This document shows, one piece after another, positions 55,332 through 63,701 of a DNA stretch of 64,000 nucleotides. Position 1 is the first letter of the stretch. Each line of letters begins with the position of its first letter. Under the pieces are notes generated by a model that saw nothing but the letters and a program-made list of their open reading frames with translations, was not told the DNA's origin and made no database searches. The stretch lies in the NCBI GenBank assembly GCA_020072645.1, contig JAIQGK010000011.1, forward strand, positions 62,001 to 126,000. Direction: 5' to 3'. This DNA comes from Terriglobia bacterium. GTDB taxonomy: Bacteria > Acidobacteriota > Terriglobia > Terriglobales > Acidobacteriaceae. The translations under genes were made by a program, and so were the position numbers.

Positions 55332-55503
55332 GCGTGATTGGTATCAACAGTTTACCAGCACTCGGAAATCGCCGCTGGCATAAGCGATCATTACCTGGTA
55401 CTCAGGGAACTGGAACCGATGGGCCGGACACGTCGCTTTTGGTGGGCAGAAGCTTTGAAAATGTTAATATTTCGTGCAAGGTTTTCGTTCACTCCAAACC
55501 CAG

Positions 55504-56244
55504 ATGCTTAGCAACGTTCCGAACTGGCCGTATCGTTTGTGCAGGCTCCGGTCTGCGCGAACACTTGCATTGTCGTGTAGCGTGGTCGCGGCGGTGGGCA
55601 CTCTAGCAGGTTTCTTTTGCAATGATGCGCACGCTGAGCAGAAAGGTGCGCCGGGGCCAGTAGTGGTCCAGCCGGGATCGCCCGGAAAACCGAGTAAGAG
55701 GCTGCCGCCGTCTACAACGGGAAAGCTGCCGCCGCGGTCGCAAGCGGAAGTGGAGTTCATGCAAGGCATGATCATGCACCATGCGCAAGCCGTGGAGATG
55801 ACGGCGCTGATTCCGTCGCATACGGAAAATAAGGACTTGCAGTTGCTGGGAGCGCGCATCAGCAGTTCACAGTCCAGCGAGATCAACTTTATGAAGCGAT
55901 GGCTGGCGGCCCGTGGGGAACCAGCTTCCATGGCGATGCCGGGAATGAAGGACATGGACATGTCTCGCCATCCGATGCCGCTCATGCCCGGCATGCTTAC
56001 AGCGGAGCAAATGACGGCGCTACGAAAGGCGAAGGGCGCCGAGTTTGACCATTTATTTTTAACCGGGATGATTCAGCACCACAACGGCGCATTAACCATG
56101 GTTAAGGACCTGTTCGATACCGCAGGCGCGGGACAGGATGCCGAGCTGTTTGACTTCGCAACCGATGTGGACAGTGGCCAGCGAGCCGAAATCAGAATTA
56201 TGCAAGGGATGTTAGACAAGAAAACTCCAGAGGAGAAACAATGA
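55504..56244 (+). CDS. Exported DUF305 protein
   Basis: 246 residues from ATG 55504; a TTG at 55474 is less likely. Signal sequence to about 41 (LSCSVVAAVGTLAGFFCNDA). Two DUF305 halves are visible: FMQGMIMHHAQAVEM (about 91-105) and FLTGMIQHHNGALTMV (about 187-202), each with the HH pair typical of this ferritin-like, possibly copper-binding family. It acts in the periplasm. The stop overlaps the next ATG (ATGA), so the DUF305 and LVIVD genes are coupled. Confidence 0.9.
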   Translation: MLSNVPNWPYRLCRLRSARTLALSCSVVAAVGTLAGFFCNDAHAEQKGAPGPVVVQPGSPGKPSKRLPPSTTGKLPPRSQAEVEFMQGMIMHHAQAVEMTALIPSHTENKDLQLLGARISSSQSSEINFMKRWLAARGEPASMAMPGMKDMDMSRHPMPLMPGMLTAEQMTALRKAKGAEFDHLFLTGMIQHHNGALTMVKDLFDTAGAGQDAELFDFATDVDSGQRAEIRIMQGMLDKKTPEEKQ

Positions 56245-58283
56245 ACCGAGTGCCCAGTTTTGTGTTTTGCGTGGCGGTGGCTGCAATGATTTTATTTCCC
56301 GGCGTGAGCCGGCTGCGGGCGCAAGCGCAGACGCCTTCACCCACGCCGGCGGTACAGACGCCTTCGCCCACACCTTCCGCAGCGGAACCAGATGAAGAGG
56401 ACAAGAATCCATTTGCTCCGGAGCCGGCTCCTGTGCTGCAACCGGGCATGAAGGGGTCGGATACAAACGATCCGCGCGCAAAGCTGGCCCCGGGCCTCTA
56501 CAACGCGGGCGAAGCAGCCATGGGGATCAAACACCTTCAGCTCGTTAAAAAGCCGGCCGCATTTCAACTCGGGACTAACAATCCAGATGATCCCAAAGTG
56601 CAGAAGATGCTGGCGCAGCTCAACTCGCCTAATCTGGCAAAGGCGCCAGCCCCCATGCGTTTGGTCATTGCCCAGCTGGCTTTCGCGAACTCCGATCTTG
56701 CGTTCCAGGGCAACCACTTGTTTCAGGGAAATTTTTATGGCGTAAATATCTTTGACATTTCCAATCCGGCAAAGACCACACTGGTGACCTCGCTGGTGTG
56801 CCCTGGTGGACAGGGTGATGTATCGGTGTATAAGAACCTGCTTTTCATGTCTGTGGAGCAGCCAAACGGACGCCTGGATTGCGGCGTGCAGGGCTTCCCT
56901 CCCGATCCTGCACCCCCGGCGGGCGAGCCAAAACCGAAGAAACGCCCAGTGCCGTCAGCGCAGAAAGACCGCTTCCGCGGCGTGAGAATCTTTGATATTT
57001 CTGACATCAAGAATCCCCGGCAGGTGGCGGCGGTGCAGACGTGCCGCGGGTCGCACACACATACGCTGGTCGTGGATCCCAATGACAAAGACAATGTTTA
57101 TATCTACGTGTCAGGCACATCGTTTGTGCGCAGGCCAGAGGAACTGGCTGGATGCTCAGGAGAAGAGCCGGACAAAGACCCGAATACGGCACTGTTTCGC
57201 ATCGACGTGATCAAGGTCCCGGTGGCTTCGCCGCAGGACGCGAAAGTGGTATCGAACCCGCGCGTGTTCATGGACGCCCGGACAGGCGCGATCAATAGCC
57301 TGACCAACGGCGGCACTCATGGCAAGAAAGGCCCGGAGAAGCCGAAGGAGACAAACCAGTGCCACGACATCACCGTATATTCGGCGATCGGGTTGGCGGC
57401 GGGCGCATGCTCCGGAAATGGAATTTTGCTCGATATTAAAGATCCCGTGAATCCCAAGCGTGTGGACGCGGTGAACGACCCGAACTATTCGTACTGGCAT
57501 TCGGCTTCTTTCTCAAACGATGGAAGCAAAGTGCTGTTTACTGATGAATGGGGCGGCGGTTTGGGGGCGCGGTGCCGTCCGAACGATCCGAATGTATGGG
57601 GCGCGGACGCGATCTTTGGTTTGAATAATGATAAGTTAACTTTTGAGAGCTATTACAAAATGCCCGCCGCGCAGAGTGACTCAGAAAACTGTGTGGCGCA
57701 CAACGGCTCGCTGGTTCCAGTGCCTGGCCGCGATATAGAGGTACAAGCCTGGTATCAGGGAGGCATCTCCGTCGTGGACTTCACAGACGCGGCGCACCCA
57801 TATGAAATTGCCTACTTTGATCGTGGACCTATCGATCCGAAGGTGCTGGTGCTGGGCGGCGACTGGTCAGCATATTGGTACAACGGCTACATTTATGGTT
57901 CAGAGATTGCGCGCGGCCTGGACGTGTTTGAACTGACGCCGAGCAAATTTTTGACGCAGAATGAGATTGATGCTGCAAAGACCGTCCGCGTAAGCGAGCT
58001 GAATGTGCAGAACCAGCAAAAAATCGAGTGGCCGGCAAAGCTGGTTGTCGCCAAGGCATATGTGGACCAGTTGTCCCGGTCGCAAGCGTTGCCAGCGGAT
58101 AAAATCACCGCTCTGCAAAAGGCAATCCAGAGCGCGGAGAGCTCACACATGAGCAATGGTGCGGTGGCGAAGTTGAAAGGCATGGCGTCGTCGTTGGCGA
58201 GTGACGCCGGCTCGGCGAAAAGCCCGGCGGATACGACGCGGCTAAAGGCTTTGGCTGAGATTTTGGAGCATCCGGCAGCGTAA
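56241..58283 (+). CDS. Exported LVIVD-repeat protein
   Basis: 680 residues. Signal peptide to about 26. A Pro/Thr-rich linker leads into beta-propeller-type LVIVD repeats: GVNIFDISNPAKTTLVTSLV, GVRIFDISDIKNPRQVAAV, KDPVNPKRVDAVNDPNYSYW and ISVVDFTDAAHPYEIAYFDR. The C-terminal 90 residues are helical. It is probably a periplasmic or surface partner of the DUF305 protein, with which it is translated (4-bp overlap). A strong terminator follows. Confidence 0.9.
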   Translation: MNRVPSFVFCVAVAAMILFPGVSRLRAQAQTPSPTPAVQTPSPTPSAAEPDEEDKNPFAPEPAPVLQPGMKGSDTNDPRAKLAPGLYNAGEAAMGIKHLQLVKKPAAFQLGTNNPDDPKVQKMLAQLNSPNLAKAPAPMRLVIAQLAFANSDLAFQGNHLFQGNFYGVNIFDISNPAKTTLVTSLVCPGGQGDVSVYKNLLFMSVEQPNGRLDCGVQGFPPDPAPPAGEPKPKKRPVPSAQKDRFRGVRIFDISDIKNPRQVAAVQTCRGSHTHTLVVDPNDKDNVYIYVSGTSFVRRPEELAGCSGEEPDKDPNTALFRIDVIKVPVASPQDAKVVSNPRVFMDARTGAINSLTNGGTHGKKGPEKPKETNQCHDITVYSAIGLAAGACSGNGILLDIKDPVNPKRVDAVNDPNYSYWHSASFSNDGSKVLFTDEWGGGLGARCRPNDPNVWGADAIFGLNNDKLTFESYYKMPAAQSDSENCVAHNGSLVPVPGRDIEVQAWYQGGISVVDFTDAAHPYEIAYFDRGPIDPKVLVLGGDWSAYWYNGYIYGSEIARGLDVFELTPSKFLTQNEIDAAKTVRVSELNVQNQQKIEWPAKLVVAKAYVDQLSRSQALPADKITALQKAIQSAESSHMSNGAVAKLKGMASSLASDAGSAKSPADTTRLKALAEILEHPAA

Positions 58284-58486: not shown

Positions 58487-59914
58487 ATGAGTACCCAAAA
58501 AGTGATTGAGCTGCCGCGCCGGACTGTCTCCAGCGTAAGCCCCCTGACCGGTGAATTGCTGCGGGAATTTGAGCAGCACTCCGATGATGTAGTTGAAAAC
58601 AAGATCGCTCTTGCTGCCAGGACTTTTCGCGATTATCGCAAAGTCCCTTTTGCTCAGCGCGCCGCCATGATGATGCGCGCAGCGGAGATCCTGGAACACG
58701 AAAAAGATACTTTTGGCCGGATGATGACCCAGGAGATGGGCAAGACGCTGATATCGGCTGTGCAGGAAGCGGAGAAAAGCGCTTTTGGCTGCCGCTTCTA
58801 TGCTGACAATGCAGAGCGGTTCCTGGCCGACGAAGAGGCCAAGACTAATGCCACGCGCAGCTTTGTGCGCTACCAGCCGATCGGTCCAGTCCTGGCCGTA
58901 ATGCCGTGGAATTTTCCCTTCTGGCAGGTGTTTCGCTTTGCCGCACCCGCGCTCATGGCCGGTAACGTTGGATTGCTGAAGCACGCTTCCAATGTGCCGC
59001 AGTGCGCGCTTGCCATTGAAGATATTTTCCGCCGTGCCGGATTCCCTGAAGGCGCTTTTCAGACATTGCTGATCGGCCCAGACCGCGTGAACAACATTAT
59101 CGCCGACCGTCGCATTGCCGCCGCCACACTCACCGGCAGCGTGGGCGCGGGAAGCAGCGTAGCCACGGCAGCCGGAAAGGCCATCAAGAAGTGCGTTCTG
59201 GAGCTTGGCGGCAGTGATCCGTTTATCGTGATGCCCAGTGCGGATTTGGACAAAGCGGTGGAAACCGCAGTGCAGGCCAGGGTGATCAACAATGGACAAT
59301 CATGCATCGCGGCGAAGCGGTTCATTGTTCATCAGCAGATTGCGGAGCAATTTGAAAAGAAATTTGTGGCGCGCATGGCGTCACTCAAAGTTGGGGATCC
59401 CATGGAGGCCTCTACTGATGTTGGGCCGCTGGCGACCGAAGACGTCCTGAAGGGCTTGGAACAGCAGGTGCAAAAAACAATCGAGATGGGCGCCCGCGTT
59501 CTGCTGGGAGGAAAGCGGATCGATCGCAAAGGTAATTTCTTTGCGCCAACTGTCCTGACGGATATTCCACAAGGCTCGCCGGCTTTCGACGACGAGCTCT
59601 TTGGCCCGGTGGCATCGCTCTATCGCGCGACTGACATGGGCGAGGCGATTGAGATTGCCAACAATTCCATCTTTGGATTGGGCGCGTGCGCGTGGACCAA
59701 CGACGCGAAGGAGCGCGACATGTTCATCAATGAGATTGAGTCAGGGCTGGCCTTTATCAATGGAATGGTGGCCTCTGATCCGCGTATTCCTTTTGGCGGC
59801 GTGAAGCATTCAGGTTATGGACGCGAACTGAGCCATCACGGCATCATGGAATTTGTGAATGTAAAGTCGGTTTGCATTCAGAAAGCGGATTTGGGAAAAA
59901 GCCGCACGGAATAG
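58487..59914 (+). CDS. NAD(P)-dependent semialdehyde dehydrogenase (succinate-semialdehyde type)
   Basis: 475 residues, an aldehyde dehydrogenase. Catalytic C273 in NNGQSC, general base E239 in LELGG, N142 in PWNFPFW and the GFGGVK-like [15 protein letters not shown] segment are all intact. The length and the motif set match the GabD/YneI group, which oxidises succinate semialdehyde to succinate. It is convergent with the fusion gene, with only 17 bases between stops. It may supply a linked catabolic step. Confidence 0.9.
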
Positions 59915-59931: not shown

Positions 59932-62268
59932 TCAGTGAATAATTTTGACCAAGTGGCGGTCATTTGCGATTTGCTTGACGACAGGTTCCAACCGGTCAAA
60001 GGCTTCCTGCAGAATACGCCGTGAAGTAGCAAAGCAGATACGGAGATGTCCGCTGGCGCCGGGGCCAAACCATCGCGGCGCGCCCGGAACCAGCGCAACG
60101 CGGGCTCGTTCACGCAGTTGCTGGCACAGTGTTTCTGAATTGTCACTCATGCTGCTTACGTTTGGAAACACCACATAGGTCCCTTGAGGCGGCTGCGCTG
60201 TTACACCCGGCCATTTTGCCAAACGGCCGATAACGTAATCACGCTGTGCCTGCAGATGCTGGACAAATTGTGCGAGCCACTCACGACCGTCGTTGAGCGC
60301 GGCGACGACGGCAATCTGCGACAACACCGAGACACCATAGACGGTGCTTTCAGCGTCTGAGGCGGCGACGATTTCTTTGCGCCATTGCGAGTCCGTGCAG
60401 ATCAGGCAGCCGACACGCAGCCCGGCCAAAGCAAAGTTCTTGGAGAAGCCATAAACCGTTACGGTGTTGCGGGCAATCTCCGGCGAGATCGACGCCAGGC
60501 TGACATGGTGGTGCGGAGCGTAAACAATGTCAGACCAGATTTCGTCTGAAACAATCCGCAAGCCGCGAGAGATGGCCCATTCAGCAACGCGCTGCTGCCA
60601 CTCGCGCGAATACACCACGCCCAGCGGATTGTGAGGATTGCAAAGCCAGAGCATGCGCGTGCGCGCCGTAAGGCGGGACTCCATGCCGCGAATGAAGTCT
60701 TCCGCGCTGGTGCCCAGCTCTACCCTTACGCGAACAGGCACAGCTCCGGCGCGCTGCACGGTGTGGTGCAGAAGAAAATCCACGGGATCGGGAATAAGAA
60801 CTTCGTCCCCGGCTGCCAAGCTTGCCCGGGCCAGCACGGCCATGCCAGATGCAGCGCTGTCTGTGGCGAATATCTCTTCTGCTTTGCAAGCCATCTGCCG
60901 AGTTTCGTTCATCCAGCGCGCAATCGATTCACGGAACTGCGGCAGCCCCTCGGGAGGTCCGTAGCTAAGCACGCCATCACGGACGTAACGCACAAGCTGT
61001 TCCTGAATCGCAGGACAGACCGGAAAGTCAGGATCGGCAGCGGTGAGCGGGATCACGTCAACAGGCTGCTGTGCCCAACGCATGTTGAACGCGCGTTCGC
61101 GCAGAAGATCAAGCCGGACGATGTTGTCTGAAAACGAGCCGGGCTGCGCATGGTCGGGTTCCGCTATGGGCAGCAGAATGGTGCTGCCGATTTCCGGAGT
61201 AAGGAAGTGACGCGTCAACTCACGGCCTTTGGCCACATAGGGCGCGCACTGCTCGCGCCGCTCCGTTGAATAGCGGGACAGCGCGTGCTCCAGATCAGAT
61301 GGCGCTTTCACGTTCTGTGGACGAAGATTTTCCGCCAGAGCCACAGCGTCTGCCACCGCGGAAGAAACGCCCTGACTGGTAAAGGGTGAAAGAGGATGAG
61401 CAGCGTCGCCCACGAGCACCAGATTTCCGCGATAAAAAGCGGGGACCAGATCTGTATCCAGCGGACGCCAAAGATGGGTGCGGAAAAAATCCGCGATGCT
61501 GAGAAGGTGGGGAATCGGGTCCGCCCACTCTCCGACGAGGGAGCTGACAAATTTCTTGCGCGTTTCGGCGAAACTCGCAGCATCTTCCGCAGGCTGGGGA
61601 AAGCGCTGGGAATCAAATTGCAGGTACCAGATCAGGTGCTCAGAGTCGACTGCCAACGTGCCTAGCGCAATGCCGCCGCTGACGGCATGGAATTTATTAA
61701 AGTTGTTGCTGGCCCAGCGCACGGTGCTCTTACACTTCACCATGCCAACGATCTCAAGCACCTGCGCCTGCGTGGCAGGCCAAGCGGGGAACAGGGCATG
61801 ACGCGCGCGAGAGCGGATTCCTTCCGCGCTGACATAGAGATCGGCTTTAACGTGTGTGCCGGTATTTAGGCGCGCCTGCGTCACGTTGCCCGCATCGTCA
61901 AAGTCGAGCGCTGCAAGCTCGGCGTCAAACAGGGGAGTGCTTCCGGACGGTAAAGCGCGCATCAGGGCGTCAATCAATTGGCGGCGGCGGATGCTGCGCG
62001 TGCCTGACGGCAAGGGCTGTTCATAGAGTATCTGCCCGCTGGAGCTGCGGCAAAAATAACGCTGCAGCGGAGCGCCGCTGTTTTCGCCGGTCAGGTCCAC
62101 GCCAAAACTCTGGAGACAATCAATGCCTTCCGGCATGAGGATGAAGCCCATGCCAGTTTCCTGGCCCTGGCGCATGCGCTCGTAAATCTGGCAGTGGTGG
62201 CCTTGAGCGCGCAAAGTAATTGCGCTCATCAAGCCGGCGATTCCAGCGCCAAAAATTGCGATCTCCAT
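59932..62268 (-). CDS. Fusion of FAD-dependent monooxygenase and PLP aminotransferase
   Basis: 778 residues in one uninterrupted frame. Residues 1-375 form a group A flavin monooxygenase: GAGIAG (7-12) and LVGDAAHPLSPFTSQG (285-300). Residues about 395-778 form a fold-type I aminotransferase: LSYGPPEG (435-442), NPHNPLG (544-550), SDEIWSD (574-580) and the PLP lysine K610 in GFSKNFALAGLRVG. Both active sites are complete. The linker (375-395) is short. Such a fusion suggests hydroxylation and transamination of the same amino acid or aromatic substrate in one pathway, with the aldehyde dehydrogenase and the second FAD enzyme as neighbours. Substrate unknown. Confidence 0.9.
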   Translation of the reverse strand: MEIAIFGAGIAGLMSAITLRAQGHHCQIYERMRQGQETGMGFILMPEGIDCLQSFGVDLTGENSGAPLQRYFCRSSSGQILYEQPLPSGTRSIRRRQLIDALMRALPSGSTPLFDAELAALDFDDAGNVTQARLNTGTHVKADLYVSAEGIRSRARHALFPAWPATQAQVLEIVGMVKCKSTVRWASNNFNKFHAVSGGIALGTLAVDSEHLIWYLQFDSQRFPQPAEDAASFAETRKKFVSSLVGEWADPIPHLLSIADFFRTHLWRPLDTDLVPAFYRGNLVLVGDAAHPLSPFTSQGVSSAVADAVALAENLRPQNVKAPSDLEHALSRYSTERREQCAPYVAKGRELTRHFLTPEIGSTILLPIAEPDHAQPGSFSDNIVRLDLLRERAFNMRWAQQPVDVIPLTAADPDFPVCPAIQEQLVRYVRDGVLSYGPPEGLPQFRESIARWMNETRQMACKAEEIFATDSAASGMAVLARASLAAGDEVLIPDPVDFLLHHTVQRAGAVPVRVRVELGTSAEDFIRGMESRLTARTRMLWLCNPHNPLGVVYSREWQQRVAEWAISRGLRIVSDEIWSDIVYAPHHHVSLASISPEIARNTVTVYGFSKNFALAGLRVGCLICTDSQWRKEIVAASDAESTVYGVSVLSQIAVVAALNDGREWLAQFVQHLQAQRDYVIGRLAKWPGVTAQPPQGTYVVFPNVSSMSDNSETLCQQLRERARVALVPGAPRWFGPGASGHLRICFATSRRILQEAFDRLEPVVKQIANDRHLVKIIH

Positions 62269-62480
62269 GCTGCTCCTTGCGAGTAGTGGCTTTCCTGGTC
62301 GTTCGATTTAGCGAGCTGATTGTGAATCTGCGAACTCTTCTTGCGTGAACGAGCTGCTTCAGCCTTGAAGAGTCCAACCGCAATCATCGATCAGATTAGC
62401 GGCGTTTTATAGTTGTGAAGCAAAGTGAACGAACGTTGCAAAATTTCCATCGCAATACGAGCGTTCACGGCCATTGACAA

Positions 62481-63701
62481 TCAGGAAGTTGCAGCCTGCT
62501 TCTGTTTGCTGAAGATGGCCTGCATATTTTCCGGCGAAAAAAATTCCGGCACCGGCACGGTATGCGCCAGCATTCCAAAGAACCGGCTGCGCTGCTCAGG
62601 ATTTTCCCGCAGGGCCTCCAGAAGCTGTTGCACCTCCGGCGGAGGCGGCTCCAGGGCCGCCAGCTGCGTTGTCAAATCAAAGTAGGGCAGCTCAGTGTTG
62701 TTACGTGTCTGCTCATAGGCAGCCAGCGCATCTTCCAGAGGCTGGCGGCCGCTGAAGCCTGCATGAATGGCCTCGGCCAGCCACTCAGCGCTGCCGAACG
62801 CATCTGTGATTCCGGAAGCCGTGCAGGGATCTTTCTGATAGCCCGCATCGCCCACCAGCGCCCATCCAGGGCCATAAGGCTTACGGACGTGGCTGGGAAT
62901 TGCGCCGCCCACGTAGCGCGATTCGCGCTTGCCGGCCTGTATCCGTTCCCACAACTCCGGCGCGTGCTGGGCGATGACGGCGCTGTGGTGCTTTTCAATG
63001 TTGGTGCGGACCGTAGGGAGATCACGGGCGGCAAACGCCACGCCGATGAGGGAAAGATTGTCATTGGTGTTGTAAGCAAAAATCACATTGCCGGGACGCA
63101 GCCACAGATGCCAGCCGACCATCGGAACACCGCTGTAATAGGCGTACCAGGAACCTTCCAGCGCGGGACCGGTCTTGTACTCAGGGGCTTCGACGGCCTT
63201 GGCCACCATGCTGAACATGCCATCGGCGCCAATGGTGATGCGCGCTTTCTCTGTAACCATGGGGCCATTTTTTTCATGGCCGCGAATGCCAACGACACGG
63301 CCATCTTCAAAAAGCACTTCCTGGGCGGAAAAGCCTTCGCGCAGCTCCGCCCCGGATTTCACGGCGGCATCGACCAGGATGGGATCAAGCCTGATGCGGC
63401 GCGGCGCAAACGCCTCAGTAACTCCGCCTTCCGCGGGAACGGGTGAGCCTGTAAGCGAGAATGCGCCATAATCAAAATGGTTGGTCAAAATCGGCGGGCA
63501 ATTGGAGGCTTTCAGCGTATCCAGCAGGCCCCAGCGCTTCAGCCGGGCAGATCCGGTCTGGTGCACGTAATGGTTGGAGAACGGCATATCGCTGGGAAAG
63601 GTCCCCCGATCGAGCAGCAGGACTTTGTAACCCTTGCGTGCCAATAACAGAGCGGTAGGAGCGCCGGCGCAGCGCGCGCCAACGATAATCGCGTCATACA
63701 T
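62481..63701 (-). CDS. FAD-dependent oxidoreductase, geranylgeranyl-reductase/halogenase-like
   Basis: 406 residues. N-terminal FAD motif IVGARCAGAPTALLLARKG (6-24), a variant of GxGxxG, and a second motif GDAGYQKDP (about 288-296). The TIGADGMFS segment is the middle FAD motif. It belongs to the large flavin-dependent reductase/monooxygenase family with many unannotated members. The tryptophan-halogenase WxWxIP motif is absent. It is upstream of the fusion gene on the same strand, 212 bases away. Confidence 0.85.
   Translation of the reverse strand: MYDAIIVGARCAGAPTALLLARKGYKVLLLDRGTFPSDMPFSNHYVHQTGSARLKRWGLLDTLKASNCPPILTNHFDYGAFSLTGSPVPAEGGVTEAFAPRRIRLDPILVDAAVKSGAELREGFSAQEVLFEDGRVVGIRGHEKNGPMVTEKARITIGADGMFSMVAKAVEAPEYKTGPALEGSWYAYYSGVPMVGWHLWLRPGNVIFAYNTNDNLSLIGVAFAARDLPTVRTNIEKHHSAVIAQHAPELWERIQAGKRESRYVGGAIPSHVRKPYGPGWALVGDAGYQKDPCTASGITDAFGSAEWLAEAIHAGFSGRQPLEDALAAYEQTRNNTELPYFDLTTQLAALEPPPPEVQQLLEALRENPEQRSRFFGMLAHTVPVPEFFSPENMQAIFSKQKQAATS

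Follow-up and report, generated by a model that had tools for sequence, protein, structure and literature searches.

The 64,000-nucleotide stretch of acidobacterial DNA analysed here (the window) carries a real and maintained fusion, in a soil bacterium, of two enzymes of well-known kinds, a flavin monooxygenase (FMO) and a PLP enzyme. We regard its product as probably a genuine bifunctional protein that originated by gene fusion within one genus, and propose that it would take part in two steps of a pathway. The coordinates of the gene, its parts and its neighbours are collected in Table 1. The window's own genome (G000) is a draft of 42 contigs that is 99.14% complete.

Table 1. Positions of the fusion gene, its functional elements and the adjacent genes in the window.
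Feature	Position	Strand	Basis or remark
FMO-PLP fusion gene, 778 aa, ATG start	59932..62268	-	Single ORF; two full-length Pfam domains; fused orthologues in G445 and G412
Class A flavin monooxygenase (FMO) half, residues 1-369	61162..62268	-	FAD_binding_3 at 2-339; alignment with nine acidobacterial orthologues, core end ...LPIA
GAGIAG dinucleotide-binding motif, residues 7-12	62233..62250	-
AEG at the DG motif, residues 148-150	61819..61827	-
GDAAHP motif, residues 287-292	61393..61410	-
Linker, residues 370-383	61120..61161	-	Junction comparison; start-codon scan
PLP enzyme half, residues 384-778	59932..61119	-	Aminotran_1_2 at 404-760
K610, predicted PLP Schiff-base lysine	60439..60441	-	Motif GFSKNFALAGLR; alignment to solved aminotransferases
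W578 in SDEIWSD (residues 574-580)	60535..60537	-	Tyr or His there in other homologues with a readable motif
AAGGAG, Shine-Dalgarno-like, 4 nt 5' of the fusion ATG	62273..62278	-
FAD2, second FAD enzyme, 406 aa; FAD_binding_3, weakly geranylgeranyl-reductase-like	62481..63701	-	Same strand, upstream; completes the core of the module as its third gene
Aldehyde dehydrogenase, 475 aa, convergent	58487..59914	+	Of the ten loci read, adjacent in the three fused ones alone

Both Pfam domains of the fusion are essentially full length. The FMO half matches FAD_binding_3 (PF01494) with 80 bits (cut-off 22; profile positions 3-340 of 349), and the PLP half matches Aminotran_1_2 (PF00155) with 179.1 bits (cut-off 19.7; profile positions 2-361 of 361). 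With gathering scores exceeded on both sides, the GxGxxG and GD motifs place the former among the class A flavin monooxygenases and the PLP lysine K610 places the latter in aminotransferase class I/II. A sequence-only reading of this DNA had described one frame encoding a complete FAD monooxygenase followed by a complete PLP aminotransferase, and had proposed a domain-architecture search; Pfam finds both domains in one protein, and the motifs quoted at the time (GAGIAG, GDAAHP, SDEIWSD and K610) are all present. The linker that it put at residues 375-395 exists too, with slightly earlier boundaries at about 370-383. This segment is the counterpart of the stop codon, the spacer and the first PLP-gene residues of unfused relatives, and contains neither a stop nor an in-frame start codon. 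Indeed, a scan of the window's gene found no in-frame ATG, GTG or TTG after the FMO core, which ends in LLPIA, and before Met396; this makes a separate start of the PLP half unlikely; judged from the reading frame, this half would most simply be made only within the fusion protein. An AlphaFold model computed from a four-row alignment had a mean pLDDT of 30.1 and a pTM of 0.24.

Relatives of the gene show how the two halves are arranged elsewhere. In a sample of 398 genomes of the same family, the FMO half used as the query at 1e-25 matched 11 genomes; weak rows from G605 (29%) and G412:C10 (32%) were dropped as paralogues, leaving FMO orthologues in ten genomes at 53-100% identity. Orthologues of the PLP half occur in the same ten at 72-100% identity. 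Three of these ten loci are fused (G000, G445 and G412, the latter two from the same genus as the window's genome) and seven are unfused. Among the unfused, the FMO and PLP genes of G378, G360 and G471 are adjacent and share a frame, interrupted at the junction by a stop codon that is followed by an ATG (spacers of 9 nt in G360 and G471 and of 24 nt, to the first ATG, in G378), about 1.8 kb holding other genes separates them in G257, G429 and G388, and in G321 they lie on different contigs. The gene-neighbourhood comparison suggested in the earlier reading supports the view that the two halves belong together, as they are neighbours in three unfused relatives; the sharing of their orthologues by the same ten genomes supports it too. 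A sequencing artefact in the unfused relatives was considered as well and is unlikely: three of them have both the stop codon and the ATG, while the genes of the other four are apart or on different contigs.

The junctions can be compared almost codon by codon. When codons are counted from the shared LPIA and aligned by eye, the stop position is TAG in G360 and G471 and TGA in G378, while the fused genes have TCG (G412), TCC (G445) and CCC (G000); thus G360 reads AAG TAG AAT against AAG TCG AAC in the fused G412. The ATG that begins the PLP gene of the unfused relatives is also missing in the three fused genomes, which have a linker of 13-14 residues instead. The original reading had named two outcomes that would undo it, namely homologues occurring only as two separate genes and an assembly error at this site. 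The mixture of fused and unfused loci answers the first. An assembly or sequencing error that joined two genes might be suspected in a draft of 42 contigs, yet G445 and G412 carry the same uninterrupted fusion, and the three assemblies, whose junction sequences have diverged, all read through. The dN/dS ratios are low in both halves (Nei-Gojobori method): 0.086 for FMO and 0.066 for PLP between G000 and G445, and 0.087-0.107 and 0.069-0.073, respectively, in comparisons with G412, which are rough because dS exceeds 1. Two further fused genomes of the genus and strong purifying selection on both halves therefore exclude such an error for practical purposes. Judged by these ratios, the two halves seem to be retained in working form.

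The three fused genes form one clade (support 100/99 for FMO and 98/95 for PLP), and this was the one node of the gene trees on which we relied. The PLP tree included two outgroup rows, L011 and L015, taken from incorrect reading frames, and left 12 of its 16 inner forks open; in the FMO tree, the fused clade is nested beside G378 and G321 with support of only 82-89%, and the outgroups are long-branched. A homologous pair in Persicobacter, described below, consists of two genes that overlap and are read in different frames, so separate genes are likely to be ancestral. From these comparisons, we infer that two neighbouring genes most likely became fused when the stop codon separating them was lost.

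FMO, PLP and the upstream FAD2 constitute a three-enzyme module, since their orthologues co-occur in the same ten of 398 family genomes. For FAD2, the search at 1e-60 returned 11 genomes, and after one row (G476, 51%) had been set aside as a paralogue the orthologues in the ten showed 71-100% identity. The protein scores 80 bits against the geranylgeranyl reductase family (TIGR02032), below its cut-off of 158.8. Co-occurrence holds despite physical scatter: the three genes of G321 are on contigs 17, 22 and 118, and FAD2 is on contig 124 in G378 and on contig 79 in G471. The FAD2 family is wider than the module, with relatives in 52 plasmid records (best identity about 48%), and this spread speaks against a strict module; Persicobacter is absent from the 30 of these 52 records that were listed. 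In G257, FAD2 is split over two frames (L041:5173-6314), which is either a draft error or a broken gene, and FMO and PLP are kept.

Other genes accompany the module in some genomes. We searched for them in 13 genomes, the ten above and three without an orthologue (G458, G483 and G605). A gene for an SRPBCC protein (Polyketide_cyc2) was found in five of the 13, all five among the ten, and in G388 the order FMO, FAD2, SRPBCC, PLP makes up four consecutive genes on one strand. A DUF6875 gene was found in three of the 13 (G412, G378 and G360), always directly upstream of FMO, with scores of 139.3-151.2 bits against PF21780 (gathering cut-off 24.5). Neither DUF6875 nor SRPBCC had a match in the window's genome, and tblastn for a DUF6875 remnant between FAD2 and the fusion gave chance-level matches only (best E 0.64 in the window and 0.036 in G445). 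G257 and G429 have, upstream of the module, a conserved gene that is UbiD-like by sequence reading, followed by a small gene; in G471 the two precede the SRPBCC gene alone (L041:159-1784, L056:7367-8989 and L083:4896-6536). The aldehyde dehydrogenase gene is probably a neighbour of the fusion and not part of the module. Further along, a 680-aa protein (56241-58283) with a weak choice-of-anchor B match only is encoded by a gene that overlaps the preceding DUF305/CopM-like gene (55474-56244) by 4 bp, and a similar pair is present in L038.

Beyond the family, the arrangement becomes scarce. FMO orthologues at E 1e-40 or better were found in three of 399 genomes of the class, all from the window's genus. 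With the whole fusion as the query against 297 genomes of the phylum, an FMO-half match at E 1e-40 appeared only in the genome itself and in G257, in a search that scored three candidates per genome, so that PLP matches could crowd out FMO. In the plasmid collection, a single record out of 1702 matching ones covers at least 80% of the fusion, and that is the Persicobacter record, with two genes. No description of an FMO-PLP fusion was found in the open-licence PMC literature, and the earlier statement that no named family has this fusion holds to that extent. The FMO-PLP-FAD2 module is apparently rare and undescribed. Seven other loci from Acidobacteriota (L018, L019, L022, L024, L027, L032 and L037) contain different frames of about 780 aa (for example L022:385-2727, minus strand), in which an aspartate-type aminotransferase is followed by about 380 residues that, by reading, include a P-loop-like stretch (GxxGxKKT in L022, GxxGxGRT in L018); Pfam searches of two of the seven, L022 and L018, matched the aminotransferase part alone.

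The closest solved relatives of the FMO half include 6-hydroxynicotinate 3-monooxygenase and salicylate hydroxylase, and the top match is 3rp6, which we take to be the urate hydroxylase HpxO; the score against the HpxO model (NF033623) is 121.4 bits for a cut-off of 500. The DG motif of class A flavin monooxygenases carries an Asp. At this site, the three fused proteins have AEG, while the seven unfused acidobacterial orthologues and the Persicobacter FMO have ADG. Such a replacement of Asp by Glu could mean altered handling of NADPH or FAD. Taken further, it might indicate that the oxygenase chemistry of the FMO half disappeared or was altered in the fused lineage, leaving this half mainly as a partner domain, given that AEG separates the three fused proteins from all seven unfused acidobacterial ones. 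We consider this quite improbable: both GxGxxG and GDAAHP are preserved, and purifying selection constrains the FMO half no less tightly than its counterparts in three unfused pairs (dN/dS 0.086-0.107 versus 0.125-0.156). A working monooxygenase half is the reading that we retain.

The reaction of the PLP half is harder to assign. None of the 25 NCBIfam models listed reached its curated cut-off; the best of them was the PatB C-S lyase (TIGR04350; 230.5 bits, cut-off 340), followed by the GntC cyclodehydratase (NF041364; 199 bits, cut-off 415). By bit score, the solved chains closest to it are those of prephenate (157) and aspartate (155) aminotransferases, with 4dgt next (154); PatB (6qp3) scores 140 bits. 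The Tyr of the SDEIY motif has a role at the PLP ring. The last residue of the SDE[IV]x motif is Trp in all 11 clade members (ten acidobacterial and Persicobacter), whereas the 35 other homologues have Tyr in 18 cases, His in nine and an unreadable motif in eight. The Trp at this place, occupied by Tyr or His in relatives, marks the family (SDE[IV]WSD), and 'aminotransferase' is best taken as one reading, a superfamily label. The name used in the sequence-only reading accordingly fits the fold, with its full Aminotran_1_2 domain, and fits less well the best NCBIfam match and the residue at the Tyr/His position. The half may instead be a lyase of the MalY/PatB kind, breaking a C-S (or C-C/C-N) bond in an amino acid already oxidised by the FMO, in which case sulfoxidation or ring hydroxylation would prime the elimination. 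TIGR04350 ranks first among the 25 listed models here and also for G388 and Persicobacter, and the NPHNP...SDEIxSDI pattern is closer to that of 4dgt (lcNPHNPvGrv...SDEIHSDI), read as MalY/PatB-like, than to those of the aminotransferases aligned alongside. However, the score stays under the family cut-off, the best solved relatives by E-value are the two aminotransferases, and the His of the DEIH motif is Trp in the fusion; a lyase is therefore a serious candidate that still falls short of likely.

A possible hint at the substrate comes from DUF6875. Proteins of this family are reported to have been identified recently as haem-binding proteins that oxidise L-tryptophan, and one of them, ZigI, is expected to be a C-7 hydroxylase (PMC13307353). 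On this analogy, a tryptophan-type precursor, tryptophan or a hydroxytryptophan, would be the likeliest, an assignment that we make tentatively. DUF6875 is absent from seven of the ten module genomes, the window's included, which makes the link to the window's gene indirect. DUF6875 matches were also present in 21 plasmid records, and nine neighbourhoods were inspected. In four of the nine (by Pfam), a PLP decarboxylase is either fused to DUF6875 (H73 and H68) or adjoins it (H64 and H70); in H62 a class V PLP gene lies upstream at a distance of two genes, and an annotated trpA lies within the stretch in H62, H64 and H70. A valine-pyruvate transaminase gene and lysA are present at a greater distance in H76 and were not counted, and no PLP decarboxylase, class V PLP gene or trpA was seen near DUF6875 in H61, H67 and H77. 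Two Streptomyces plasmids encode Pyridoxal_deC-DUF6875 fusions of 605 and 606 aa (L087:6711-8528 and L090:6696-8516); this composition suggests a decarboxylase plus a hydroxylase, with tryptophan perhaps as the substrate.

Together, these observations allow a working model. The FMO half would hydroxylate (or epoxidise) a small aromatic or heteroaromatic substrate with FAD, NAD(P)H and O2. In the step immediately before or after, the PLP half would transaminate the amino-acid side chain of that molecule or catalyse an elimination there; an aromatic metabolite, possibly derived from tryptophan, would thus undergo both steps. FAD2, and DUF6875 and SRPBCC where present, may carry out other steps of the pathway. 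Fusion would provide the two enzymes in equal amounts and close together, and channelling is conceivable. Alternatively, the fusion could be mainly neutral, if the two steps are not consecutive and FAD2 acts between them, so that joining neighbours was merely cost-free. FAD2 and SRPBCC do sit between FMO and PLP in G388, and closeness is evidently not required, since G321 has its three genes on three contigs. Yet the fusion has persisted through the divergence of the three fused genomes (FMO-half identity to G000 of 91% in G445 and 71% in G412), and the adjacent pair in G378, G360, G471 and Persicobacter is FMO with PLP, not with FAD2; we therefore think a neutral fusion rather unlikely and prefer two linked steps. 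At its broadest, in a reading that we hold to be less likely than not, the undescribed paired FMO/PLP family (SDE[IV]WSD) and the second flavoenzyme might be central to a novel pathway of aromatic amino acids that certain members of this acidobacterial family possess; its further partners (a DUF6875 haem oxygenase, SRPBCC) would be interchangeable, and in one lineage the pair would have turned into a single channelling enzyme.

Fusion proteins reveal functional partnerships between enzymes, and in this case the full set of arrangements can be seen among close relatives, from genes with others intervening, through neighbours one stop codon apart, to the fusion itself. The fusion, the phyletic pattern and the gene neighbourhoods agree on one three-enzyme module, which offers those looking for new pathways in Acidobacteria a concrete target. 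Moreover, the fused and the in-frame unfused orthologues are a natural pair for asking whether fusion buys channelling.

Each part of the system resembles known ones and departs from them in a defined way. The FMO half shares FAD_binding_3 at full length and the GxGxxG and GD motifs with the class A flavoprotein monooxygenases HpxO, 6-hydroxynicotinate 3-monooxygenase and salicylate hydroxylase, and differs from them in its PLP partner and in AEG at the DG motif. With class I/II aminotransferases of the aspartate/prephenate type, the PLP half shares the complete Aminotran_1_2 domain and Lys610, Asp575 and Arg743, which we take to be the residues with known aminotransferase roles, whereas their SDEIY Tyr is Trp578 here. 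MalY/PatB C-S lyases are alike in the NPHNP and SDEIxSD regions and provide the top-scoring NCBIfam model, but the fusion lies below its cut-off and has Trp in place of the His of SDEIx. DUF6875 ('cytochrome P422') clusters, such as zig of Micromonospora zingiberis, likewise combine a DUF6875 gene and a PLP enzyme in one small-molecule gene set; the named zig genes include P450s, a prenyltransferase and a terpene cyclase (PMC13307353), none of which was seen in the present module, and, unlike these clusters, the window's genome has no DUF6875 gene. The nearest parallel is found on plasmid pPP3 of Persicobacter psychrovividus (Bacteroidota). The annotation of 24.5 kb around its pair names no FAD2, DUF6875 or SRPBCC gene, and the pair differs from the fusion in consisting of two genes that overlap by 8 bp in different frames, with 31% and 36% identity. 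Nevertheless, these genes (AABK40_RS20425 and RS20420) are likewise an adjacent FMO and PLP gene in the same order, and the PLP enzyme likewise carries SDEIWSD.
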